Part shown: positions 15,778-36,236 of the stretch, piece by piece
Layout of the letters: each line of letters starts with the position of its first letter
Position numbering within the stretch: position 1 is the stretch's first letter
NCBI RefSeq assembly: GCF_900188485.1
Contig: NZ_FZPH01000006.1
Coordinates: 62,001 to 126,000 of the forward strand
Reading direction: 5' to 3'
Origin: Asanoa hainanensis
Lineage (GTDB): Bacteria > Actinomycetota > Actinomycetes > Mycobacteriales > Micromonosporaceae
DNA: 64,000 bases
Notes under the pieces: model-generated
What the model was told of the DNA's origin: nothing
Databases searched by the model: none
What the model saw: the letters and a program-made list of their open reading frames with translations, nothing else
Program-made: the position numbers and the translations under genes

Positions 15778-17622
15778 ATGAGGATGCAGCCTCGTCAACA
15801 GCTGCTGGAGATCTGGAACGCGACAGTGCGTTCGTCCTGGTCAGAGCGGGAAAAGAAGTGGAAGTTCGGCGGGCGCGACGCCCCCAACTCCATCGGTGAC
15901 GCCGAGCAGCTGCTCTGCATCCTGACCCCGGCGACCAAGGTCGAGTCCTTCAAATTGGACCGTCCGGACGAGACAGCCGAAGACATGATCCGGGCGCTAC
16001 GCCCGCTCGGCAACGCGACCGAGATCCCGAAGACCCTGATCGGGATCCTCCGCGAATACTTCGACCGCTACAGCGACCCTGACGGCACTCCGCTGTTCTC
16101 CGGCTCGTCCTACTTCAGCTCGACAGGGCCGGCGCAGCCGTCGAAAGAGCAGCTCAGGCTAGACATCGTCGACTCGTTCGCGATGTCCGTCACGCTGTCG
16201 CTGTCCGTACTCGGTTTCCTCAAGGTCCTCCGGTCGGTCGCCAACCGCGAAGAGAACCGCAGAGAGATCGAGGCGCTCGAGTTCCAGGCCAGCACCCGGC
16301 TGAGCGCCGCCATGGTCGGGCTCCTGCGCAGCTTCACGGTCAACGTCTTCGACATCGACTCCGCGTACGGCCAGGCGCTCACCACCATGATCAACCAGGA
16401 GAACCTGCCACAGCGCCAGGTGGTCAGCGCTGTCCGCCGCGACCTCCGGGAAACCATCGCCAGCTTCCGCGAGGTCCTGATCGGTTCCGGCCAGGTCGGC
16501 GACATCGACAGCCCCGACCGGCTGTTCGAGGTCGGCTGGTCCTGGGGGATCGTCACCGGCGCCCCGCCCATCGAGACCAACGAGCCGGTGGGCCAGCAGC
16601 CCAAGGGCTTCGCCCAGGACGCGCCCTACCTCTACTTCACCGTCATCGCCGTCGACGCGATCGAAGACCTGTTCTCCGAACGTACGCGCGTCCTCGGTCT
16701 GCTCAACGAGGAGCAGCAGCGGCTCTCGCGTGCGCTCCAGTTGCGGTGGGAACTGACCCGCGCCTACTGGTCGACCATGGCGACGTTCGGGCAGGCCCAG
16801 CGGTGGCCGGTCGAAGACATCCCGTGGCGCACCACTGACGAGGACGCGTCCGACTACTACACGCTGCTGGTCACCTCGCTCGCCGTCAAAGGCCTGGTCC
16901 AGGAGCGCGGCTCCGACATCGAGCTGGGCCGGATCGGCACCGTGCTGGAGGAGCTGGCCAACCGCGCGCGGGTCACCCGGCGTCCGTTCGACACCGACCC
17001 CGCACTGAGCCTGCACGCCCCGGGCGTGCTCGTGCCGCTGGTCGGCAGCGAAGACGCGGGTGACTCCCGCCTGTTGTGGACGGTCTCCGAGTTCGCCGCC
17101 CTGCTCTTCCAGCGCACGACCGTGATCGGCGGGCTGATCAACGACGCCGAGGGCCGCAGCCGGATGCTCGACTTGGCCGACCGCACCTGGGAGCACCTCA
17201 ACAGGCGCCGCCTCGACAAGGGGCCGGGCCGCAACCTGTGGGACCAGCCCACCTCGGTGTTCGGCCAGCTGACCACCCGTTACGACAAACCGTCCTGGTA
17301 CTACACCCAGCGCGTGGTGCAGGGCCTGGTGACGACGGCCAACATGCTCAACCGGCCACCACTGCGCAGTCCGCGCCTCGGCAACTACGCGTTCGACCTG
17401 CTCACCGAGGCCGAGCACCTGTACGACATGGAACTGCTCTCGGGCGCCGGCGACGCCGGACCGCGCATGCGAGAGACACTCAAGGTCGCGTCGATCCACC
17501 TGTCCCGGGCCCGCGAGATCTTGCCGGAGCGCCCTGGCACCGCTGCCGTCCTAGCGGCGCAGGTGCTCATCGCGCTGGACGAACTGGCCGCCGCGAGGCG
17601 TGACGTGACCGAGGCGGGCTAA
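15778..17622 (+). CDS. SCO2524-family protein of unknown function
   Basis: A 614-residue soluble, mostly helical protein. The N-terminal pattern QPRQQLLEIWNATVRSSW, SIGDAEQLLCILTPATKVES, and SVTLSLSVLGFLKVLR match what I recall of the actinobacterial family named after Streptomyces coelicolor SCO2524. No catalytic motif is evident. It is the first gene of a three-gene operon: the next start is 4 nt after its stop. The family usually travels with SCO2521-2523 homologues, all of which are present here, so these proteins probably act together. The function of the set is unknown. Confidence 0.8.
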   Translation: MRMQPRQQLLEIWNATVRSSWSEREKKWKFGGRDAPNSIGDAEQLLCILTPATKVESFKLDRPDETAEDMIRALRPLGNATEIPKTLIGILREYFDRYSDPDGTPLFSGSSYFSSTGPAQPSKEQLRLDIVDSFAMSVTLSLSVLGFLKVLRSVANREENRREIEALEFQASTRLSAAMVGLLRSFTVNVFDIDSAYGQALTTMINQENLPQRQVVSAVRRDLRETIASFREVLIGSGQVGDIDSPDRLFEVGWSWGIVTGAPPIETNEPVGQQPKGFAQDAPYLYFTVIAVDAIEDLFSERTRVLGLLNEEQQRLSRALQLRWELTRAYWSTMATFGQAQRWPVEDIPWRTTDEDASDYYTLLVTSLAVKGLVQERGSDIELGRIGTVLEELANRARVTRRPFDTDPALSLHAPGVLVPLVGSEDAGDSRLLWTVSEFAALLFQRTTVIGGLINDAEGRSRMLDLADRTWEHLNRRRLDKGPGRNLWDQPTSVFGQLTTRYDKPSWYYTQRVVQGLVTTANMLNRPPLRSPRLGNYAFDLLTEAEHLYDMELLSGAGDAGPRMRETLKVASIHLSRAREILPERPGTAAVLAAQVLIALDELAAARRDVTEAG

Positions 17623-17626
17623 CCAA

Positions 17627-18544
17627 ATGTTGATCTTCGCGACCTCCGACAAGGGCGGCACCGGTCGCTCCGTCACCAGCAGCAACATCCTCTATCGGAG
17701 TGCGCTGCAGGGCAGTGACGTCTGCTATCTCGACTTCGACTTCGGCTCGCCGACCTCCGGCGCGATCTTCAACATTCCCACGACGCTGCACGGCACCACC
17801 CAGGGTGGCCTGCACTCCTACCTGCACGGCATGGTCGCCGACCCGCAGCGGTTGGAGATCTGGCAGGAGTCCGACCGGTCCAGCCTGCGCAGCCGTCCGC
17901 CGGGCGCGGGCCGGTTGGTGCTGCTGCCCGGCGACAGCGGCGGCGGCGAGTTCCCGATCACCAAGGAGAACACCGAGCGCTGCGCCCGGCTCTTCCTGCA
18001 CCTCGAGGAGGAGTTCGACCTCTGCCTGGTCGACCTGAGCGCCGGCCGGTCGTACGCGACCGAGATGGTGCTCGCGGCGACCGCGACCGAAGCGTTGCGC
18101 AACATCCGCACGCGCTGGCTGGTCTTCCACCGCTGGACCCGGCAGCACGTGCTCGCCGCCTCCGGTCTGGTCTACGGCGAGCGGGGCATCCTGCACACCG
18201 GGGAAAGCCACGGGCACGACCGCGAGGAACTGCAGAACTCGTTGCGGTTCGTACGCACCGCGGTGGTCAACCCGGACTCACCGGAGCTCGAAGGGCTGCG
18301 GCCCGCCCAGATCGCGTGGCTGCGCGACGTCGACCGGGATCTGTCCGAACTGGCCAGCAGCCGGAAGGTCGGTCGCACCCTGCTGCTCGGGTCGATCCCG
18401 CTCGACCCTGTCCTGCAATGGCGTGAACAGCTTATTTCGGATAACGACGTGTGGTCGCGGCGCATCGCGAACCGTGAGACGCTGGAACAGTTCGACTCGT
18501 TGGCTAAAAAGATCGTCGACGATGCGGCCTGGGAGACGCTGTGA
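17627..18544 (+). CDS. SCO2523-family variant P-loop (ParA-like) protein
   Basis: A 305-residue protein with a ParA/MinD-like beginning. The deviant Walker A motif is KGGTGRS at residues 9-15: the signature lysine (Lys9) is kept but the canonical phosphate-binding lysine is Arg14. YLDFDFGSPTSG (about 34-45) and LCLVDLSAGRS (about 132-142) take the places of the switch and Walker B motifs. The family known from SCO2523 is described as a variant P-loop group. It may bind nucleotide without normal hydrolysis. It is 4 nt downstream of the SCO2524-like gene and shares GTGA with the next gene, so all three are translated together. Confidence 0.85.
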   Translation: MLIFATSDKGGTGRSVTSSNILYRSALQGSDVCYLDFDFGSPTSGAIFNIPTTLHGTTQGGLHSYLHGMVADPQRLEIWQESDRSSLRSRPPGAGRLVLLPGDSGGGEFPITKENTERCARLFLHLEEEFDLCLVDLSAGRSYATEMVLAATATEALRNIRTRWLVFHRWTRQHVLAASGLVYGERGILHTGESHGHDREELQNSLRFVRTAVVNPDSPELEGLRPAQIAWLRDVDRDLSELASSRKVGRTLLLGSIPLDPVLQWREQLISDNDVWSRRIANRETLEQFDSLAKKIVDDAAWETL

Positions 18545-19491
18545 CCGGAGTGGCATTCGAAGAGGCGGTCGCTGCGCGGAACGTCGAACGCGTTCCGCTC
18601 TCGCACCTTTCGATCGAGCTGGGCCACCTCTACATGGAAGAGTTCGCCGGCGGCATGGACTCGCTGCGCCGGCACTTTCGCCGGATCGCGCCGTGGGCAC
18701 AGTCCGCCGCGCGCACCGTCGCGACCAAACCGGGCGGCAACCGCCCCCGGGTCAGCACCTGCTTCCTCGTCGACGACTACTTCTCGCGGTTCAGCACACC
18801 GCGTGAGGTGATCCCGATGCTGGTCGCGGCCGCCGAAGAGAGCGGCCTGGTGATCGACTACCTGGCGCGCGAGTCGGGCTGCGCGGTCGCCGACGAGATC
18901 CCGCTGGCCAAGCTGGTCGAGCAGGCCCTGGTCACCGACCCGGTGCCGGGCAGCAACGGCATCCGGCCGCCGACCACGGAGACCGGCTGGCTGTGCAACG
19001 GCCAGCGCTCGCCGAACACGGTCGCGATCCCGGCGATGGCCGACAAGGGTTGGCTGCCGCCGATGCAGAACGCGGCCAACCGGCACTCGATCTTCGTCGA
19101 CGTCGAGCTGTGGGACCTCGAGAACGGCCAGCGACGCTGGTCGTGCCCGTTCCTCGCGGCGGTCTGGCAGCTCATCCGGCTCGGCCTGCTGCGCCACAAC
19201 GGCGAGATCGTCACCACGCCCTGGCAGGTCGAAGAGCTCCCCGACGACTGGGACAAGCTGCCCGCCGTCGTGCAGCTCAACCCGCGCGCAGCCGCGTTCA
19301 GCGCCTACCGCACGTTCTCGGTGCTGGGCTCGCGGTTCCTGCAGGTCGAGCTCGCGGTGCGGACCATCCTCAACCAGGTCTCGATCGACCCGACGGTGCT
19401 CGACCAGGTCTTCACCCGCATGCGCGGCGAAAACATGGAGCTGCCGAAAGAGCTGGTCGACCGCATCGACTACGTCTTCATCGGGGAGTGA
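18541..19491 (+). CDS. SCO2522-family protein of unknown function
   Basis: A 316-residue soluble protein with no recognised catalytic motif. PLSHLSIELGHLYMEEF near the start, VSTCFLVDDYF, and NRHSIFVDVELWDLENGQRR resemble the SCO2522 family as I remember it. The GTG start overlaps the stop of the P-loop gene (GTGA). The gene ends 4 bp before the stop of the convergent NACHT-HEAT gene, leaving no room for a terminator, so the two converging transcripts must overlap. Confidence 0.8.
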   Translation: MTGVAFEEAVAARNVERVPLSHLSIELGHLYMEEFAGGMDSLRRHFRRIAPWAQSAARTVATKPGGNRPRVSTCFLVDDYFSRFSTPREVIPMLVAAAEESGLVIDYLARESGCAVADEIPLAKLVEQALVTDPVPGSNGIRPPTTETGWLCNGQRSPNTVAIPAMADKGWLPPMQNAANRHSIFVDVELWDLENGQRRWSCPFLAAVWQLIRLGLLRHNGEIVTTPWQVEELPDDWDKLPAVVQLNPRAAAFSAYRTFSVLGSRFLQVELAVRTILNQVSIDPTVLDQVFTRMRGENMELPKELVDRIDYVFIGE

Positions 19492-19495
19492 CACG

Positions 19496-22400
19496 CTAGT
19501 CGCCGATGTCGGGCAGGTGCTCGGGGTCCGCGCCGGGTAGCCAGCTCAGCGCCTGCCCGGCGAGCCGACGGAAGTTGCGGTCGTCGTCGGTGCTGGCCAG
19601 CGTGACCAGTAGCCGCCGGATCTCGACGTCGCCGCCGAACCGCTCGCACAGCGCCCGCACGGACGCCTCGCGGATCGACCAGTCACCGTCGCGCACCATG
19701 TCGACCAGGATCTGGCGCACCTCTTCGTGCGCGTAGAGGCGCTCGCCCAGCACCCGCAGGGCCTCGCGGCGCACCCGCAGGTCGCTGTCGCGGCGGACGG
19801 CCTCGATCAGCAGTTCGCGGATCGCCGGGTCGCCGCCGAACGACTCGCCGAGCGCCCGCAGGGCCGCGGCGCGGACGGTCTCGTCGTCGCCGGTCGCCCG
19901 CAGCGCGAGCAGGTCGCGGTGCTCGTCGTCGATGCCGGCCGCGACCAGGGCGACGGCGGCCTCGGTGACGACCAGCGCGTCGGGGTCGCGCCGGACCCGG
20001 TCGAGCAGGATCTCCCGCACCTCCGGCTCAGCGGCGTACGGCTGGAGCGCGTGCGCGGCGGCCTCGCGTACCCGGGGGTTGGCGTCCGACTGCACCCGAG
20101 CGGTGATCACGGTGCGGGTGCCGTCGTCGGCCACCTTGGCGGCCGCCGCGAAGACCTGACCGTCGGGATCGTCCCGGGTGCGCTCCAGGAGCAGCGCGAT
20201 CACCTCGGGGTCGGCGGCCGCGTGCCGGGCCAGGGCCCGGACGGCGGCACCGCGCACCTCGGCGTGGGCGTCCTGCCGAGCCCGGTCGAGCAGCTCGCGG
20301 CGGACCTGGGTGTCGCCGCCACAGCGCTCGGCCAGGGCGTCGACCGCGGTCCGGCGTACCGTCGCGTCGGGATCCTCGCCGACCAGCCGCGACAGCACGG
20401 CGCAGACCGTCGCGTCGAGGCCGATCTTCTTCACCAGGGCCTCGGTCGCGGCCAGCCGGACGGCGGCGTCGGTGTCGGTATGTGCGATCTTGGCCAGGGC
20501 CGTGGTGGCCGGTGCGAAACCGGGCAGCGCCGCGGTCAGCGCCCGGATGGCGACGAGCCGCACCTCGGCCGAATGGTCGCGGCGCGCGCACTCGACCAGC
20601 GCCGTGTGCACCTCGGTGTCGGCGCGGAAGTGCTCCCGGAGGATCTGCACGGCGGCCCGCCGGGCGATCTCGTCGGGGTCGCGGCCGGTGCGCTCGATCA
20701 GCAGGCTCTTCACGGTGTCGGCCGCGTCGAACCGCTCGACCAGTGTCTTGGCCGCGCTGCTCAGCACGCCTGCGTCGCGGTCGTCGTGCAGCAGCGCGGT
20801 CAGCAGGCTCTGGACGGGCTGCCCGGAGCCGAGCCGGTCGGCGAGTACGCGCACCGAGGCGCGGCGGACCACACCGTCGGGCTCGGCGCGGATCCGCTCG
20901 ATCAGCACCTCGCGCAGGTGCTCGTAGCCCAGGCCCCAGTCGTTGAGCGCCCGGGCGGCGACGGCCACCACCTCGGCGTCGCGGTCGGTGCGCACCCGGT
21001 CGACCAGCGCCGAGCGGACCGTGTCGTCGTACGGCAGCCGCTCCATCATCTGCACGGCCGTGCGGCGCACACCCGCGTTGCCGTCGCGGCGGGTGCGGTC
21101 AAGTAGTAGGCGGCGGACGGCCGACTCGTCGCGGAACCGCTCGCCGAGCGCCCGCACGGCAGCCAACCGGACAGCGGCGTAGCCGTCGACGGTGGCCCGC
21201 TCCAGCAGCACGTCACGCACCCGGGAGTCGGTGCCGAACCGCTCACCGAGCGCTTCGACGGCGGCCAGCCGCACGCCGGCGTACGCGTCGTCGCGGGCCC
21301 GGCGGATCAGCTCCTCGCCGGCCCGGGTCAAGGCGAGCTGGTAGGCACTGCGGTTGGCCGCGGTGCCCGCCACCTGCGCGAGCTCGGCCAGCCCGGCGAC
21401 CGCCGCGTACGACGCCCAGCGGTCGTCGATCGCGCTGAGCACCGTGCTGAACAGGTCTTCGATGTGCTCCGACGGCGGCGCCAGGATCGCGGCGAGCTGC
21501 GCGGCATAGGCCGACACCGAGCTCCAGATCAGCCGCACGCCACGGCGCCGGTACCAGGTGAGGTAGATCTGGCCGCCGGGCCAGGTGGCGCCGATCGTGC
21601 GGGCCGCCGGCAGGATCTCGGTCTCGATCAGCGCCATCGTGTCGCGGTCGTCGATCGAGACGCAGTGCTCGATCAGCAGGATGATCCGGCGCAGCAGGTC
21701 CTGGGCAGGGATCGACACCGCGGTATGCGGGTTGCGCACCTCGGCCAGGCACTGCGCGGCCAGCGCGAGGTTCCACGGCGGCTGCGCGAAGGCACCGGCC
21801 GGCCACGGGTGGTTGACGTCGGTCGCCAGCAACGAGATCAGCTGCGCGGTGTGTCGTTCGTGGAGGGCGCCGGCGACCAGGCGGAGCACCTCGCGCCAGG
21901 ACGGGTCGGCCCAGTGCTCGACGAACAGGTCCTTGAGCCGGCTGAACGGCCACTGCTGGTCGTGCTTGAACTTGCCGACCACGGCCTCGGCGCAGAAGAA
22001 CTCGAGGAATGTGCGGTGCACGAACCCGTACAGGTGGGGGCCGTAGCGGCTCAGGATGAAGTTCCGCTCGCGGAACTGGTTGATCATCGAGCGGGCGATC
22101 GCGCGCGCCTCGGCCGGATCCTTCTGGTAGCGCTCGGCGAGGTATTCCTCGAACACCTCGCTCAGGTCCTCGGCGCTGACGTAGTTGGCCGCCAACCCCC
22201 GTTCACCGCTCTGCACCTTGTACGCCAGCCGGCGCAGAAGCTCTTTCTTGTCCTCGGCGTCGATGAAACCGGGGCTCTCGTATTGGTCCTGGAGGTGGCG
22301 GTTGATGTCCCAGTGCTCGACCAGCACCGAGGCCGCGTGGTCGAACAGCTTCCAGCGCTCGCGGGGCAGCGCCTGGTGCTTGCCGATGATCGCCAGGATG

Positions 22401-23833
22401 GTCAACAGCATCGGGTTGCCGGCCAGCTCGCGGATCGACGGCGAGTGCCGCATCGCCGCCAGCAGCCGGGCCCGCCGGGCCGCCGAGTCGCCGGGGCGGT
22501 CGTTCATCGCAAGGTCGTACCAGCTGGCCAGGAACTCGGTGATCTGGTTGTCGTCGAGATCCTGCAGGGTGAAGTGGGCGAAGCCGAGCTCGCTGAGCAC
22601 CCGCCGGGCGTACCCGATGATGCGGGACGTGACGATCACCCGCACGTGCGGGAACTCGCCGGCGAAGGCGGCGATCTGGTTGGCGACCGCCTCGCGGCGG
22701 CGCTTGTCGAAGATCTCGTCGAGGCCGTCGAAGATGACCACGGCCGGGCCGCCGCCGGTCAGGTAGCGCAGCAGTGCCGCCCGCTCCAGGCCCAGGCCGT
22801 CGAGGCCGGCGCGATGGTCGAGATAGTCGACGAAGTTGCTGCACTTGCCCTCGGCGTAGAGCGCGACGTAGGAGCGCAGCTCGATGAACAGCGGCAGGTG
22901 CCCGTCGAGCGGGCCGAGCCGGTCTTCGACGGGTGTGCCGTTCTGCGAGAGCGCGAGGGCGATGTAGCGGGCCGCGGTCGACTTGCCCGAGCCAGGGTCG
23001 CCGAGCAGCACGATCGCCTGGTTGTCGGGCGCGGCGACGATGTCGAACAGCCGGCGCAACGGCTTGGCACGGTAGGCCTTGTGCAGCAGCGCCAGCTCGT
23101 CGGGGTCGACCTCGTCGGGCACGTCCTCGGTCTCGAGATGGCCCTCGTACTGCATGCGCTGCCACCACTCGCGCGGCAGCTCGACCGGCGGCGGGTCCTC
23201 GCGCACGGACTGCTCGATGAACACCGAGGTGAGCCGCATCTGGAGGTATTCGTCGCGCTGCGGTGGCGTCAGCGCGTCAAGGTCGAGACCGCCGTATTGC
23301 TGGTGGAGGCGGTCGTAGTAGCGCTTGAGCGTCTCGGCGCTGAGCGACTGCAGGGGGCCGGTCGGCCGGCCGATGTCGGCCAGGCAGTTGGCGACGGCGG
23401 CGGTGACCAGCGCGGCCAGGTCGCCCGGGCCAGTGAACGTGCTGCACATGTGCCGGACCACGAGCTCGCTGCGCAGGGCCTCGATCTGCTCGGCCTCGCC
23501 GCCCCGGTCGATGTGCACCCGCGGCCACGGCGCTTCCTCGTCGAGCAGGAAGATCAAGCAGGGCTTGCCCATCGCCTCGGCCTGGCGGTATTCGAGCTCG
23601 GTGATCGACCGGTCGTAGCCGGGTGGCACGAAGCCGTAGCGCCAGGCGAAAATGCCGACATAAAGGTCGCACTCGGCGACGTCTTCGAGGCAGCGCTCGA
23701 CCGGACGTCGATCTTCGGCCACATAGGACTCCATGGCCACGTCTTCGACCCGCAACCTGCGGAGCGCCAGTTTCACAGCGGAACGGCACTCTTCGAGATC
23801 ACGGAACGTTGCTGAGACGTAGACCTTGGTCAA
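19496..23833 (-). CDS. DUF4062-NACHT-HEAT-repeat protein (bacterial NLR-like NTPase)
   Basis: A 1445-residue protein starting at TTG 23833, chosen because GAGGAG lies 5 nt upstream and the next residues (TKVYVSATFRDLEE) are the usual DUF4062 start. Domain order: DUF4062 (about 1-155, with CDLYVGIFAWRYGFVP and SITELEYRQAEAMGKPC), linker, NACHT NTPase with Walker A GDPGSGKST (278-286) and Walker B VVIFDGLDEI (365-374), helical winged region, then from about 830 to the end 15-20 HEAT-like repeats with the pattern D-x-xVRxxAxxAL. NACHT proteins of bacteria act as anti-phage sensors; the repeats would recognise the trigger and DUF4062 is the probable effector. It is embedded between SCO2522-like and SCO2521-like genes. 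Confidence 0.88.
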   Translation of the reverse strand: MTKVYVSATFRDLEECRSAVKLALRRLRVEDVAMESYVAEDRRPVERCLEDVAECDLYVGIFAWRYGFVPPGYDRSITELEYRQAEAMGKPCLIFLLDEEAPWPRVHIDRGGEAEQIEALRSELVVRHMCSTFTGPGDLAALVTAAVANCLADIGRPTGPLQSLSAETLKRYYDRLHQQYGGLDLDALTPPQRDEYLQMRLTSVFIEQSVREDPPPVELPREWWQRMQYEGHLETEDVPDEVDPDELALLHKAYRAKPLRRLFDIVAAPDNQAIVLLGDPGSGKSTAARYIALALSQNGTPVEDRLGPLDGHLPLFIELRSYVALYAEGKCSNFVDYLDHRAGLDGLGLERAALLRYLTGGGPAVVIFDGLDEIFDKRRREAVANQIAAFAGEFPHVRVIVTSRIIGYARRVLSELGFAHFTLQDLDDNQITEFLASWYDLAMNDRPGDSAARRARLLAAMRHSPSIRELAGNPMLLTILAIIGKHQALPRERWKLFDHAASVLVEHWDINRHLQDQYESPGFIDAEDKKELLRRLAYKVQSGERGLAANYVSAEDLSEVFEEYLAERYQKDPAEARAIARSMINQFRERNFILSRYGPHLYGFVHRTFLEFFCAEAVVGKFKHDQQWPFSRLKDLFVEHWADPSWREVLRLVAGALHERHTAQLISLLATDVNHPWPAGAFAQPPWNLALAAQCLAEVRNPHTAVSIPAQDLLRRIILLIEHCVSIDDRDTMALIETEILPAARTIGATWPGGQIYLTWYRRRGVRLIWSSVSAYAAQLAAILAPPSEHIEDLFSTVLSAIDDRWASYAAVAGLAELAQVAGTAANRSAYQLALTRAGEELIRRARDDAYAGVRLAAVEALGERFGTDSRVRDVLLERATVDGYAAVRLAAVRALGERFRDESAVRRLLLDRTRRDGNAGVRRTAVQMMERLPYDDTVRSALVDRVRTDRDAEVVAVAARALNDWGLGYEHLREVLIERIRAEPDGVVRRASVRVLADRLGSGQPVQSLLTALLHDDRDAGVLSSAAKTLVERFDAADTVKSLLIERTGRDPDEIARRAAVQILREHFRADTEVHTALVECARRDHSAEVRLVAIRALTAALPGFAPATTALAKIAHTDTDAAVRLAATEALVKKIGLDATVCAVLSRLVGEDPDATVRRTAVDALAERCGGDTQVRRELLDRARQDAHAEVRGAAVRALARHAAADPEVIALLLERTRDDPDGQVFAAAAKVADDGTRTVITARVQSDANPRVREAAAHALQPYAAEPEVREILLDRVRRDPDALVVTEAAVALVAAGIDDEHRDLLALRATGDDETVRAAALRALGESFGGDPAIRELLIEAVRRDSDLRVRREALRVLGERLYAHEEVRQILVDMVRDGDWSIREASVRALCERFGGDVEIRRLLVTLASTDDDRNFRRLAGQALSWLPGADPEHLPDIGD

Positions 23834-24019
23834 CGCGGCTCCTCGATTACGCGAGCGACACGCGCCGTTACCGTACCAACATCTGGCAACCTTCGGGTTC
23901 CCGGGCATCGGGGCTGATCAAAGTATCGTCTGGGTGGCATTCCGCGCGGCACCCTTGCCTACCGGGCGGACCATGGGATGTGATTCAGCCGCTATCGTTC
24001 GGCGCGCACGGAGATGGAC

Positions 24020-24952
24020 ATGCTCACGTTTGGCGAGGTCCACACCGGACTTCTGCAGAACTCGACCTCGCTGCCCTGGGATGCCACGGCCGAGGTGCTC
24101 AACCTGCTGGTCGGCGAGCAGGTGCGCCGCTCCGAGCGGCCGATGGCGTACGCCGTCTCACCGAACCTGTTGACCAGTGTGGACTGCCGGCTGCCGGCCG
24201 GCTCCGGCAAGGTCATCCGCGGCGTCGGCACCGTGGTCTCCCGTGCCTCGATCACCGGCGGCCACGTGGCGCAGGGTTCCGGGCACGCGGTCGTGGTCAA
24301 GAGCACCGCCAACCGACGGCTCTCCTGGTCGCACTACCTGACCAGGCCGGGCACGATCGAGGCGATCGGCAAGGCGGCCGGCGACGACATCGCCCGAGGC
24401 TTCGCCGGCACCGGCCAGCCGATGGGCACCCTCGACCTGGGCGCCATCAGCGGGCGGACGCTCGACGCGGTGCAGCGCTCGACCCGGCTCGACCGGCACC
24501 CGCCGTTTCGCACCCAGCGCACCCACATGCGCTGGGTGGTGACGCCGACCGACGAGCCCGGCGCCGAGGCGACCGGCACGTTCCGGGTCGCGACGCCGAC
24601 GCTGCGGGTGCTCGAGCTCGTCGTGCCGCGCGACCACGTCGGTGCGATCGTCGACCTCTGCGAAGACCTCGCGCTGCACGACTGGCTGCTGACCACCCTG
24701 CTGGCCCTGATGGAGTCGAGCCTCACCGGGCCGGGCACCCGGGCGCAGCGGATCTCCCGGCTGCGCCCGGCGATCGACACCCTGCTGCACCTGTGGATGC
24801 CGGCGGCCCGGGTCGACGAGGCGGTGCAGCCGGTCTGGCAGTCGCTGGAACGCCGGCCCGGCTTCACCCGCCAATGGGAGGCCTCGGTCAGCCGGATCCG
24901 CGACCAGCTGACGCTCGGCACCCTCGCCCTGCTCGAGTCCGCGACGGCCTAA
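24020..24952 (+). CDS. SCO2521-family protein of unknown function
   Basis: A 310-residue soluble protein. The opening MLTFGEVHTGLLQNST and AYAVSPNLLTSVDCRLP match what I recall of the family named after SCO2521. The ATG at 24020 is chosen over 24014 because ACGGAG at 24008-24013 then has 6-nt spacing. It is divergent from the NACHT-HEAT gene with about 190 bp between starts. A possible -10 (TATCGT) lies near 23994. Its partners in other actinobacteria are the SCO2522-2524-like genes, here separated from it by the inverted NACHT gene. Confidence 0.8.
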   Translation: MLTFGEVHTGLLQNSTSLPWDATAEVLNLLVGEQVRRSERPMAYAVSPNLLTSVDCRLPAGSGKVIRGVGTVVSRASITGGHVAQGSGHAVVVKSTANRRLSWSHYLTRPGTIEAIGKAAGDDIARGFAGTGQPMGTLDLGAISGRTLDAVQRSTRLDRHPPFRTQRTHMRWVVTPTDEPGAEATGTFRVATPTLRVLELVVPRDHVGAIVDLCEDLALHDWLLTTLLALMESSLTGPGTRAQRISRLRPAIDTLLHLWMPAARVDEAVQPVWQSLERRPGFTRQWEASVSRIRDQLTLGTLALLESATA

Positions 24953-25214: not shown

Positions 25215-25670
25215 CTATCGCGAGGTAGGGGGATTCTCCCTGCCGACGGTCTGGTCGAGGGCCGAGCGGTACTGGCCCGGGACCCGGCCGCCGGCGATCA
25301 GGGCGTCGCGGATCTCGGTGAGCAGCTTGATCTCTTCGCTGGGCGCGGCGGGCGGGGGCTCCTCGCCACGGCGGCGACGCTCGGCCAGCTTGTTCATGGG
25401 GAAGATCACTAGGAAGTAGAGGGCGGCGGCGGTCAGCAGGAACGTGATGAGCACGTTGATGAACGCGCCCCATTCGACGTAGTTGTTCGCGCTGATCTCG
25501 TTGCGCCCGCCGACTCGGTTGGCGCCCGCCCCGATGAGCTTGAGTAGGGGTTCCAGGAACGACTTGGTGAACTGGGTGACCACGCCGGTGAACGCCGCGC
25601 CGATCACCACGCCGACCGCCAGGTCGACCACGTTTCCGCGCATGATGAAGTCTTTGAAGCCCTTAAGCAT
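25215..25670 (-). CDS. mscL: Large-conductance mechanosensitive channel MscL
   Basis: A 151-residue membrane protein with the MscL signature at the N-terminus (MLKGFKDFIMRGNVVDLAVG, then VVIGAAFTGVV), forming TM1, a periplasmic loop, and TM2 (FINVLITFLLTAAALYFLVIF) followed by the cytoplasmic helix. The homopentameric channel opens under membrane tension and releases solutes on hypo-osmotic shock. AGGGTGAG precedes the ATG. It lies 8 bp after the GntR regulator gene on the same strand and is probably cotranscribed with it. Confidence 0.97.
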   Translation of the reverse strand: MLKGFKDFIMRGNVVDLAVGVVIGAAFTGVVTQFTKSFLEPLLKLIGAGANRVGGRNEISANNYVEWGAFINVLITFLLTAAALYFLVIFPMNKLAERRRRGEEPPPAAPSEEIKLLTEIRDALIAGGRVPGQYRSALDQTVGRENPPTSR

Positions 25671-32384: not shown

Positions 32385-35300
32385 TCAGACTCCGCATGGT
32401 GCGCGGGACGCCTGTCCAGGCACGTACTTGTGCCATTCCCCCGAGGTGATCGGGTCACCCGCGGCGGCGCAGATCTGCCGGGCTACGGCCTCCGGATCCA
32501 GGTCCCACAGCCGGGCGACCTTGTCGACACCCCCGGTCGCGAGCAGCCCTCGCCGCTGGTCGAACGCGACGCTGAAGACCGCGCCGGCGTGGCCCTCCAC
32601 CGCGGCGACGAAGCGCGGAGCTGTTCGGTCGGCGATGTCCCAGATCCAGACAGTCCCGTCCCCGGCACCGGCCGCGAGGGTGCGGCCGTCGCCGCTGATC
32701 GCCACCGCGTAGACATAGTTGTCGGGCCCGGTGAGGGGTGCGCCCAGCGGCGTCGGACGCGCGGGGTCGGACACGTCCCACAGCCGCACGGTGTTGTCCG
32801 CGCTGCCTGCCGCGAGCAGGTGGCCGTCGGGACTGAAGGCGAGCGAGAACACGTAGTTGTCAGGTCCGCCGAGGGCGGGCCCGAGGCTGACCGGGCGCCG
32901 CGGATCGGCGATGTCCCAGAACCGGATCAACCTGTCAGCGCCACCCACCGCGAGGACCCGGCCGTCGGGACGGAACGCGGGTCCGTAGACGTAGTTGGTC
33001 GGTCCGGCCAGCGGACTACCCAGCAGCGCCGGCCGGGCCGGGTCGGACACGTCCCACAGCGACGCGGTGTGGTCGTCGCTCGCGACAGCCAGGATCCGGC
33101 CGTCGGGGCTGAAGGAGAGCGCCTCGATGACCGCGGTGTGCCGGACGAGCCGCCGCGGGATCGGAGTCGGTCGCGCGGGATCGCTGACATCCCACAGTTG
33201 CACCGCGCCATCGGTCGTGCCGACGGCCAGCGTGTGCCCGTCGGGGCTCAATGCCGCCGCGCCCGACGTCCGGCCGACCACGGCCGCCGGCGTTATGGTC
33301 GGGCCCTGCGGCCGCGGTGCGCGCGGATCCGTCACGTCCCAGAGCGCGGCGCTGTTGTCGCTGCTCGCGATCGCCATGACGGTTCCGGATTCGGCGAATA
33401 CGGCGTTGAACACCGTCTCCGCGGGGCCGGCGATCACCGGTCCGGGCGGGTGCCACAGCCGGACGGTGCCATCGGCACCGCTGGACGCGAGCTGGCCCGT
33501 CGGGTCGGCCACCCCTATGCCGGTCACCGGCGCCGGATGCGGCAACGCGGCCATGACCCGCCACGACCCCGTGTCGAAGATCCACAACTTGCCGTCAGAG
33601 CTCGCGGCCGCGAGCCGCCGCCCGCTGTCGAAATACGCGACCGCGTTGATCCAGCCTCCCGCGATCGTGAGTGGTGGCTCGGCCCGGGGCCGGTCAGGGC
33701 GTTCGATGTGCCAGACCCGGACCGTCTTGTCGGCCGATCCGGTTGCGAGTGCGCGACCGTCGGGGCTGAAGGCGACCGCGTAGACCGTCTTCGCGTAGCC
33801 GGTCAGCGGCGCGCCGAGCGGGCGCGCGCCGCCGGGGCCGCCGACCTGGAACAGCCGCACAGCCAGGTCGGCGCCACCGCTGGCGAGCAGGCGTCCGTCA
33901 GGGCTGTAGGCGACGGAATGCACGAACGCACCGGTCTCCACCGGGTCGCCCAGAGGCTGCGGCTCACCGGGTCGGGCGATGTTCCACAAGCGGATCGTCC
34001 CATCGGCACTGCCGGCCGCGATCGCACCACCGTCGGGGCTGAAGGCGACCGAGTAGACGGTGTTTCCGAAGCCGGTCAGCGTCGCGACAGGCACGGTCGC
34101 GTCGGCGCGGCTGATGTCCCAGAGGCGCACAGTGCGGTCGCCCCCGGCGCTGGCGAGGAGGCGGCCGTTCGGGCTGACTGACAACGCGAACACAGTCGCG
34201 GTGTGTCCCGGCACGGCCGGCCCGCGCGGGGCGGGGCGGCCCGACCGGTCGAGAGTCCACAGCCGCAGTGCGAAGTCCGGGCTGGCTGCGGCCATGACCT
34301 CGCCCGACCGGCTGATCGCGACCGCTTGGACGACACCCGGCGGACCCATCAGCCGCCCTACGGCCGGAGATCCATAGGCCGCGAGCAAGCTCGATCGGGC
34401 CTCCGGGGTCGGTGCCGCCCGGTAGGCGGCCAGGCTGAGCTGTGCCGCCACCATGGGATCGGTGCCCCGAAGCTCGTCGGAGACCGTCGCGATCTGGCGT
34501 GACACGGCCAGGTCTCGTTCCCGCCTGGCGTCCGAGCGCTGGCGTAGCGCCACCACGGCCAGGCCGGCCGTCACCAGCACCAGGCACGTGAGCGTCGCGA
34601 CCAACTGCTTCAGCGTGCGGGTGCGCCGACGGCGCAGCCGCGCCTCCGCGCGGTCGCTCTCGATCGCTTCTTCCAGGTAGTCGCGTTCGAGCGGGTTGAG
34701 CCGGTCGCGGTTCGACGGCTCGGCGAGCCACTCGTTCGCCACAGCGAGTCGGCCACCTCGCGGAAGCGCGTGCTGGTCTCGCCCCGACTCCTGCCATTGC
34801 CGCGCCCCGTCGGTGATCTGGCGGTGGACGCGCAGGTGCGCGCGGTCCGACTCGATCCAGTCCCGTAGCCGCGGCCAGGCTGACAGCAGGGCCTCGTGCG
34901 TGATCTGCACCTCCTCCGCGTCGACGGAGACCAGCCGGGCGGCGACGAACCGTTCGAGTGCCGCACCGAACGCGTCGTCGGACACCAGTTCGTCCCGCTG
35001 CACTCTGCGCCGGGTGTCGGTCGTTCCCTGGCCGAGGTGCACCAGCCGCGGGAAAACCCGTTTGGCCGCCTCCTGCTCTTCGGCCTCGAGCTGCTCGAAC
35101 ACGGTCTCCGCGGTGTGCGCGACCGCACGGCTGACGCCACCTGTTTCCTGGTAGGCGTCGACGCTGAGTTTTCCGTGGCGGCTCAGCTCCCAGGTCGCGC
35201 GCAGCGCGTGCGACAGCAACGGAAGGCTGCCGGTGTCGTGGCTCGCCGGGTCGAAATCGCGGAGCAGCAACTCCAGGAGCCCGTCCTCGATGTCGAGCCG

Positions 35301-36236
35301 CGCTCGTCGCGCCGGTTCCACGATCGCCCGGCGGACCTGCTGGTCGGTCATGGGCCCGACCACCACCTGGCGGTTGGCCAGCGCCTCGGCAAGCAGGGGA
35401 ATGCGCAGCGCCCGGTGGTAGAAGTCGGCGCGCATGCCGACGACCACGGACGACCGGGTCGCGGCGAGGTCCGTCAGGATCCGCACGAACAGCTGCCGCT
35501 CACGGTTCTCCGTGGTCTGCGTGAAGATCTCCTCGAACTGGTCGACCACCACGAGGGTCGCCGCCGCACCATCGCCGAGCAGCGCCGAGATGGCGGCGGG
35601 GCCCGCTTCCAAGGCCGCGGCGGCCTGTCCGGCGTCGGTGGCGGTGTCGGTCGACAGTCCGCGCGCGAGACTCGCGGTCGGGTGCGCGCCGGGCGTCACG
35701 ATGACCGCACGCATCGGTGTGGACCCAGCGCGACGCAGCGCGGCGACGGCGCCGGCGCGGATAAGCGACGTCTTGCCGGATCCCGACGCTCCGACGACGG
35801 GAACCACTCCACCAGAGCCGCCGACCGCCCTGATCGCGTCGACGAGGCACGAGGTCAGTTCCTCGCGCCCGAAGTACCACTCGGCGTCGTCCACGTCGAA
35901 GCTGGCCAGTCCCCGGTAGGGCACGGGCGCGTCCGCCGGCCGCCGCCCGGGTGCTCGTCGGGCGCGGGCCAGGGCCTGCCGCCAGCGGGCCTGCTCCGCG
36001 GGCTCGCGCACCCCGCAGGCGGCGAGGATCGCCTCGATCAGGTCGGGTGGCTTCGACGGCGGCAGGTGCCGGCCCGAGAAATAGTCACCGACCGTCGCCG
36101 GTGGCAGCTTGACGACCTTGGCAACGTCGCGAACGGTGAGTCCGGCTCGCTCCCGCACCGCGGTCAGCGCCCGGCCGAACTCCTGCCGGGTGCGAATCTG
36201 GAGAACCGGGTCGTCGTGCGGTGAGAACTCCGACAT
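32385..36236 (-). CDS. XRE-STAND ATPase-WD40 repeat protein
   Basis: A 1283-residue multidomain protein. An N-terminal XRE-like helix-turn-helix (about 15-65, LTVRDVAKVVKLPPATVGDY) precedes a STAND-type NTPase with Walker A GASGSGKT (149-156) and Walker B ATLVVVDQFEEIF (about 225-237). A single transmembrane helix (LVATLTCLVLVTAGLAVVAL, about 545-565) follows, then some 14 WD40 blades to the C-terminus, recognisable by repeated FSPDGxxLAxGSxDxTVRLWD patterns, enough for two propellers. The order suggests that the WD40 part senses a ligand and the NTPase oligomerises. Similar proteins are common in actinobacteria; several are proposed conflict or signalling proteins. No effector enzyme domain is visible. 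Confidence 0.9.
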   Translation of the reverse strand: MSEFSPHDDPVLQIRTRQEFGRALTAVRERAGLTVRDVAKVVKLPPATVGDYFSGRHLPPSKPPDLIEAILAACGVREPAEQARWRQALARARRAPGRRPADAPVPYRGLASFDVDDAEWYFGREELTSCLVDAIRAVGGSGGVVPVVGASGSGKTSLIRAGAVAALRRAGSTPMRAVIVTPGAHPTASLARGLSTDTATDAGQAAAALEAGPAAISALLGDGAAATLVVVDQFEEIFTQTTENRERQLFVRILTDLAATRSSVVVGMRADFYHRALRIPLLAEALANRQVVVGPMTDQQVRRAIVEPARRARLDIEDGLLELLLRDFDPASHDTGSLPLLSHALRATWELSRHGKLSVDAYQETGGVSRAVAHTAETVFEQLEAEEQEAAKRVFPRLVHLGQGTTDTRRRVQRDELVSDDAFGAALERFVAARLVSVDAEEVQITHEALLSAWPRLRDWIESDRAHLRVHRQITDGARQWQESGRDQHALPRGGRLAVANEWLAEPSNRDRLNPLERDYLEEAIESDRAEARLRRRRTRTLKQLVATLTCLVLVTAGLAVVALRQRSDARRERDLAVSRQIATVSDELRGTDPMVAAQLSLAAYRAAPTPEARSSLLAAYGSPAVGRLMGPPGVVQAVAISRSGEVMAAASPDFALRLWTLDRSGRPAPRGPAVPGHTATVFALSVSPNGRLLASAGGDRTVRLWDISRADATVPVATLTGFGNTVYSVAFSPDGGAIAAGSADGTIRLWNIARPGEPQPLGDPVETGAFVHSVAYSPDGRLLASGGADLAVRLFQVGGPGGARPLGAPLTGYAKTVYAVAFSPDGRALATGSADKTVRVWHIERPDRPRAEPPLTIAGGWINAVAYFDSGRRLAAASSDGKLWIFDTGSWRVMAALPHPAPVTGIGVADPTGQLASSGADGTVRLWHPPGPVIAGPAETVFNAVFAESGTVMAIASSDNSAALWDVTDPRAPRPQGPTITPAAVVGRTSGAAALSPDGHTLAVGTTDGAVQLWDVSDPARPTPIPRRLVRHTAVIEALSFSPDGRILAVASDDHTASLWDVSDPARPALLGSPLAGPTNYVYGPAFRPDGRVLAVGGADRLIRFWDIADPRRPVSLGPALGGPDNYVFSLAFSPDGHLLAAGSADNTVRLWDVSDPARPTPLGAPLTGPDNYVYAVAISGDGRTLAAGAGDGTVWIWDIADRTAPRFVAAVEGHAGAVFSVAFDQRRGLLATGGVDKVARLWDLDPEAVARQICAAAGDPITSGEWHKYVPGQASRAPCGV

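Follow-up and report, generated by a model that had tools for sequence, protein, structure and literature searches.

We analyzed a 64,000-nucleotide stretch of the Asanoa hainanensis genome (contig NZ_FZPH01000006.1, positions 62,001 to 126,000; here called the window), in which a gene for a bacterial NLR-like protein of DUF4062-NACHT-HEAT architecture sits among genes of the SCO2521, SCO2522, SCO2523, and SCO2524 families (Table 1). Membership in all four families (NCBIfam equivalogs) was assigned from full-profile scores above the curated cutoffs. SCO2524, SCO2523, and SCO2522 run rightwards and converge on the leftward NACHT-HEAT gene, with 4 bases between the converging stops, and SCO2521 lies head to head with the NACHT-HEAT gene on its other side, as an original prediction made from the letters of this DNA had described. 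One of its details needed adjustment. The first three genes had been called tightly overlapping; SCO2523 and SCO2522 do overlap by 4 bp, but SCO2524 and SCO2523 are separated by 4 bp. The size given for the NLR, 1,445 residues, is that of a protein starting near residue 26 of an ATG frame of 1,470 amino acids, a start that the homologues back. The SCO2523 protein of the window matches the loci of three named Asanoa species at 96 to 99%. As the comparisons below show, the SCO2521-2524 locus acquired the NLR a single time, within one branch of the Micromonosporaceae, and the NLR was then inherited with it.

Table 1. Genes and protein domains of the NACHT-SCO locus, in positions of the window
Feature	Position	Strand	Basis
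SCO2524-family protein, 614 aa	15778..17622	+	NCBIfam NF040567, 875.4 bits (cutoff 300)
SCO2523-family variant P-loop (MinD/ParA-like) protein, 305 aa	17627..18544	+	NCBIfam NF040564, 506 bits (cutoff 200)
SCO2522-family protein, 316 aa; fold predicted to be class I aminoacyl-tRNA-synthetase-like	18541..19491	+	468.5 bits (cutoff 200)
Bacterial NLR-like protein, DUF4062-NACHT-HEAT; 1445 aa from a likely start near 23833	19496..23908	-	Pfam scan; homologue starts
HEAT repeats of the NLR, ~residues 870-1440, putative sensor	19589..21298	-	PF13646, 181.8 bits, 8 stretches
NACHT domain of the NLR, residues 298-463; Walker A GDPGSGKS, Walker B-like DGLDE	22520..23017	-	PF05729, 29.5 bits (cutoff 26.7)
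DUF4062 domain of the NLR, residues 28-110; likely catalytic Glu at residue 106	23579..23827	-	PF13271, 77.1 bits (cutoff 24.7)
Short spacer separating NACHT from the head-to-head SCO2521 gene; 180 bp with an NLR start at 23833	23909..24013		coordinates
SCO2521-family protein, 312 aa	24014..24952	+	NCBIfam NF040565, 393.1 bits (cutoff 150)

An alignment of 22 SCO2523 proteins found 425 stretches with a relative in one collection, of which we kept the best 80 (L031 to L110), a set hence skewed towards relatives of the query; the contents of the loci were scored with profiles built for this analysis. In these best 80 of 425 loci, SCO2524 was present in 80, SCO2522 in 79, and SCO2521 in 78, accompanied by the SCO2525 methyltransferase in 49 and by a DAO-type flavin adenine dinucleotide (FAD) oxidoreductase in 52. 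A DUF4062-NACHT gene was found in 13, one of them broken (L048). The idea that the set had been built around the NLR was not borne out, as the other 67 named loci do without it. The same count bears on the proposal that absence of the NACHT gene from nearly all other loci would mark it as a chance insertion; the count goes part of the way, but a chance insertion is not supported by the results described below.

Among 150 sampled genomes of the family, 84 have SCO2524, with a patchy distribution within genera, and 66 do not. A DUF4062-NACHT gene stands beside SCO2524 in 24 of the 150 and in all six sampled genomes of the genus. One genome carries a pair of SCO loci, both accompanied by an NLR of their own, and one locus (L089) is on a record titled plasmid. 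NLR copies were searched for with a profile (A2) built on residues 1 to 690 of 11 linked NACHT proteins. Matches running from profile position 3 or earlier into the NACHT region were considered full length, with one contig-cut and one broken copy included and a DUF4062-only match (G101) not counted. This yielded 30 full-length copies in the 150 genomes, 25 of them (from 24 genomes and 11 genus codes) within ~5 kb of SCO2524, and the other five are in genomes that also carry a linked copy. No full-length NLR was found in the 66 family genomes without SCO2524, where the best seven candidates per genome were scored (24/84 versus 0/66; Fisher test, 1.7e-7, a value that ignores relatedness). In 396 genomes of the phylum, with the best two candidates scored per genome, the only full-length match was in the window's own genome; seven of these genomes have SCO2524. 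The core occurs outside the family as well.

The phylogeny of the core genes places the NACHT loci together. In a tree of SCO2524, SCO2523, and SCO2522 from 88 loci, built with a quick method, they form one branch (Shimodaira-Hasegawa-like approximate likelihood ratio test, SH-aLRT, 97) of 24 tips, 23 with NACHT and one (L046) without, and the label needs two changes. This tree omits L112, L115, L118, L120, L129, L056, and L105 as well as loci lacking any of the three core genes. In a tree of the NACHT region, from which L115, L118, L120, and L129 (duplicates) and L048 and L128 (broken) were omitted, the 23 SCO-linked sequences group with three copies from elsewhere in their genomes in a single clade (100/99). 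When core distances and NACHT distances are compared pairwise over 22 loci, they correlate with an r of 0.97, and none of 2,000 permutations was as high. NACHT and SCO2521 are head to head in 24 of 24 distinct loci, six of which have a DAO gene between them, pointing the NACHT way. The pair is found in both orientations relative to SCO2524-2522, which indicates that at least one inversion left it intact. In a flank control of 25 branch loci, NACHT was present in 24 and the commonest other families (three tie) in nine, flank families being slightly undercounted because some loci have short flanks. A chance insertion is rejected by the tree, orientation, and flank controls. The single branch, the fixed head-to-head order, the excess over flanking families, and the rarity elsewhere all argue that the NACHT gene belongs with the SCO set, in agreement with the original prediction, and we consider the association solid and selective.

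Loci without the NLR usually carry something else. A predicted membrane protein that weakly matches DUF6879 (22.8 and 19.3 bits in the two members scanned, below the Pfam cutoff of 23.9) was found in 60 of the best 80 of 425 loci, which are 60 of the 67 without NLR. In all 39 aligned members, the first 90 residues include one or more hydrophobic segments, and in 59 of the 60 loci the protein follows SCO2521 on the same strand. NACHT and the DUF6879-like protein were found together in none of the 80 loci, and seven have neither. In a further 40 loci (34 from the family and six from outside), picked among genomes without NACHT and in part from species already represented among the named loci, the DUF6879-like protein was present in 33 cases and neither protein in seven. 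At two of the seven named loci with neither (L041, 11869-12768, minus strand; L054, 4633-5652, minus strand), the place next to SCO2521 is taken by a different protein, with hydrophobic N-terminal segments by eye, possibly a third type of output. In L183 to L185, from three of the 13 genomes of genus code g12 with SCO2524, SCO2521-2524 are present with neither NACHT nor the DUF6879-like protein, and L183 and L184 have a gene of 529 to 607 amino acids with a hydrophobic stretch upstream of SCO2521. We had expected NACHT and the membrane protein to have replaced each other many times independently, but this was not found: the tree needs two NACHT changes and has one NACHT branch.

In the NLR, the NACHT domain, with Walker A and B motifs, is preceded by an N-terminal effector and followed by C-terminal repeats, the layout of the bacterial bNACHT proteins, and an NPHP3_N match was just above the cutoff (28.2 versus 24.8 bits). 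The likely catalytic Glu, the Walker A motif, and DGLDE are each present in 23 of 23 SCO-linked homologues, and eight full-length homologues from outside Asanoa, of 1,436 to 1,453 amino acids, are 44 to 62% identical to the window NLR. A 2026 preprint reports DUF4062 as a family of TIR-like enzymes that hydrolyze nicotinamide adenine dinucleotide (NADases); in the parts cited here, DUF4062 proteins protected Escherichia coli, KpSwz protects bacteria from phages via NAD+ depletion, with NAD+ loss shown for this protein, and human TEP1 hydrolyzes NAD+ (PMC13174449). Profile A2 matches the solved DUF4062 chains of TEP1 (E value of 3e-5) and KpSwz (1e-4). The last Glu of SITELEY aligns to an Ala of the deposited KpSwz chain 10wc_A, which we took as E97A; since the structure in the paper is of E97A, this Glu probably falls in the E97 column. 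A NADase-type effector is a good biochemical prediction for the NLR.

The NLR resembles several described systems without coinciding with any of them. With the Swarozyc/DUF4062 TIR-like NADases, it shares DUF4062 and, from the alignment, the conserved Glu, but KpSwz is a 326-residue chain with its own auxiliary (AUX) domain, which binds the phage portal (PMC13174449), of which A2 aligns only to residues 7 to 201, whereas the Asanoa domain is fused to NACHT-HEAT within a SCO2521-2524 locus. Animal proteins of the TEP1/NWD1/NWD2/NPHP3 type also have DUF4062 next to a NACHT ATPase; several of the human ones carry WD40 repeats, in contrast to the C-terminal HEAT repeats and bacterial gene partners found here (PMC13174449). 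The bNACHT proteins, reported as antiphage, have the same succession of N-terminal effector, central NACHT, and C-terminal sensor, but DUF4062 does not occur in the main text of that report, and its bNACHT descriptions, in the parts cited here, include no SCO partners (PMC12169576).

We also fetched 15 unlinked NACHT-HEAT loci, chosen for their stronger matches over roughly a dozen others. Four of the five unlinked full-length copies are in longer frames, of 2,018 to 2,193 amino acids. The one in L124 (9610-15774, plus strand; G024), away from the SCO locus, codes for 2,054 amino acids arranged as DUF4062-NACHT-HEAT-nSTAND5-TIR, with two NTPase modules and TIR-type domains at both ends. NACHT-HEAT relatives outside the clade mostly match A2 from about position 145 on, i.e., without DUF4062. 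By hydropathy, L131, L134, and L135 have hydrophobic N-terminal segments ahead of the shared linker. L141 and L142 begin differently. In six of the 15 fetched loci (L131, L132, L133, L134, L137, and L138), the NACHT-HEAT gene is located beside a KGGVGR-motif gene and its cluster, and L131, which was fully annotated, has FxsB, FxsC, and FxsT of the FxSxx-COOH system. A gene of the AAC(3)-like aminoglycoside N-acetyltransferase family (L131, 7539-8510, minus strand; 161 bits, below the cutoff of 270) lies inside this FxSxx cluster, and related genes are found in L133 and L137.

FxSxx-COOH systems (FxsB radical SAM, FxsC TIR-like, and FxsT KGGVGR-NB-ARC-TPR) have in common with the Asanoa locus an Arg-variant MinD/ParA-type P-loop and a STAND NTPase, although the NACHT-HEAT proteins beside them match from the linker on and lack the DUF4062 of the Asanoa NLR. 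FxsB, FxsC, and FxsT were not detected by NCBIfam scans in the 16 open reading frames (ORFs) at the window locus (six of the locus and ten neighboring). Related NACHT-HEAT proteins have thus become attached to two kinds of system with an Arg-variant P-loop protein, with differing N-terminal parts. Kaur et al. describe stand-alone systems of the FxSxx-COOH kind with an inactive MinD/ParA-like domain and, in the part cited here, treat this kind together with conflict systems (PMC7159879).

The SCO2524 protein matched no Pfam family, and among 41 homologues there were single, scattered weak Pfam matches. SCO2523, a variant P-loop protein, has the motif DKGGTGR, with Arg at the expected position of the Walker A Lys, and K9, R14, D36, D38, and D136 are invariant in 22 of 22 aligned sequences. 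Its score against the KGGVGR-motif variant AAA ATPase family NF047398 (37.2 bits, below 90) indicates a similar motif and no membership. For SCO2522, a fold like that of class I aminoacyl-tRNA synthetases is predicted, the catalytic domain of its model being a structural match. Neither a HIGH nor a KMSKS signature was evident by eye, and the model stops roughly at the point after which a KMSKS loop would come. The SCO2521 model is confident (predicted local distance difference test, pLDDT, of 94.3) and had no confident match among solved folds. Compared with PADLOC, the five locus proteins gave weak partial matches only, and the SCO families convincingly matched no defense family. In Streptomyces coelicolor, an operon sco2521-2526 has been reported and is listed in a HupS-controlled coexpressed group, and the SCO2525 methyltransferase is cited as needed for normal growth (PMC11472566); genes of this operon are named in PMC11472566, PMC3017869, and PMC6344877. 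We found no description of a NACHT pairing with the SCO2521-2524 set in the open-license literature searched.

Ten neighboring ORFs were scanned with NCBIfam and Pfam (PADLOC being used for the locus proteins) and included one other STAND protein, with nSTAND1 and WD40 repeats (32385-36236, minus strand), ~7 kb from the SCO set; the rest were ordinary or unassigned. An MscL gene (25215-25670, minus strand) is found near SCO2521. A family of ~150 amino acids at the matching place, probably the MscL gene, flanks nine of the 25 NACHT-branch loci, so in some members of the branch the locus seems to keep a stable position on the chromosome.

The explanation that we prefer, with a probability of roughly 45%, is that the NLR is a NAD-depleting alternative output of the SCO module. 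The HEAT arm would act as the sensor and would keep the protein off at rest. Upon a trigger, the NACHT domains would oligomerize and bring the DUF4062 domains into alignment, and these would then hydrolyze NAD+, leading to arrest or death of the cell, a chain suggested by the layout of STAND proteins (PMC12169576). For the SCO proteins and the trigger we infer the following: the SCO proteins would supply or gate the trigger, SCO2521 being the first candidate, and the trigger may come from outside, as a phage or some other invader, or may arise when the SCO complex itself is disturbed (guard model). The NLR would be one of several alternative outputs of the module, the membrane protein being the usual one.

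A broader and rather doubtful proposal is that SCO2521-2525 may constitute a modular system for cell suicide or immunity in filamentous actinobacteria, so far undescribed, whose core would sense a disturbance and drive one of several exchangeable outputs. In this reading, the core would combine the MinD/ParA-like variant with the protein resembling class I synthetases and two proteins that have no known relatives, often joined by a methyltransferase. The output would usually be the membrane protein that weakly matches DUF6879; in two loci it would be another membrane-type protein, and in a single clade a NADase receptor of DUF4062-NACHT-HEAT architecture. CBASS and Thoeris are modular defense systems with exchangeable effectors, and the SCO loci would resemble them in combining a conserved core with alternative outputs, here a NADase or a membrane protein. 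They differ in that no known signal-synthesis core was recognized among the families scanned here.

Several observations weigh against the NLR as an output of the module. Most SCO loci do without the NLR, which indicates that it is not needed by the core, and the mutual exclusion of NACHT and membrane protein in the 80 loci cannot be read as many events, since it is one evolutionary event on the tree. A fourth unlinked DUF4062-NACHT-HEAT copy (L127) falls outside the NACHT clade, which shows that other proteins share this architecture. The positions of L047/L051 and L116 differ between the core and NACHT trees (with weak support), the tree tool warns of long branches, and the congruence of distances is partly expected from shared inheritance in the same genomes. 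At L112 (G006), the NLR is open but SCO2524 is broken into three frame pieces and SCO2523 into two, and at L048 (Paractinoplanes aksuensis), NACHT is in pieces with the core intact, which may reflect decay or sequencing error; L046 lacks the NLR. The genome searches scored the best seven (family) or two (phylum) first-look candidates, and the absences are not proofs. Lastly, of the four human DUF4062-NACHT proteins, NAD+ hydrolysis is reported for TEP1 only (PMC13174449).

Among the alternatives, the one that survives best, still unlikely, is that SCO2521-2525 is a growth or development module of filamentous actinobacteria, in which the NLR regulates hyphal death or arrest or guards the module, phages not being the natural trigger. 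The HupS-controlled coexpression and the growth requirement cited for SCO2525 point this way, as do SCO2524 in 84 of 150 family genomes, the core outside the family, and the weak PADLOC matches. However, the patchiness of SCO2524 within genera and the locus on a plasmid-titled record look more like an accessory trait, and exchangeable outputs are typical of defense systems.

It is less probable still that SCO2521-2524 are dedicated immune components of a multicomponent antiphage system with the NLR as their NTPase sensor-effector. The protection by DUF4062 proteins, the NAD+ loss with KpSwz (PMC13174449), and the antiphage bNACHT proteins (PMC12169576) are consistent with such a system, and so is the adjacency of NACHT-HEAT relatives to FxSxx-COOH systems in six of 15 loci, a kind discussed with conflict systems (PMC7159879). 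This has to be set against the lack of an NLR in most SCO loci, the neighborhood with a single other STAND protein among otherwise ordinary or unassigned genes, and the SCO families' failure to match any defense family convincingly. That the NLR landed beside SCO2521 once and hitchhiked without functional coupling fits the single recruitment and the related copies elsewhere in genomes (three fall within the clade and have longer frames, the scanned one, L124, ending in extra NTPase and TIR domains), but is improbable given the 24/25 versus 9/25 flank counts (some flanks being short), the head-to-head order kept in 24 of 24 loci in both orientations and across an intervening gene in six, and the few NLR copies elsewhere.

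A bacterial NLR with a NADase-type effector is of a known kind; its genetic setting is new. The locus is a bacterial counterpart of the human TEP1/NWD1 DUF4062-NACHT layout, with candidate partners encoded alongside. The four SCO families are widespread in actinobacteria, named only by Streptomyces locus tags and without an assigned job, and an NLR of predicted NADase type tied to the set gives a testable handle on what the SCO proteins sense.

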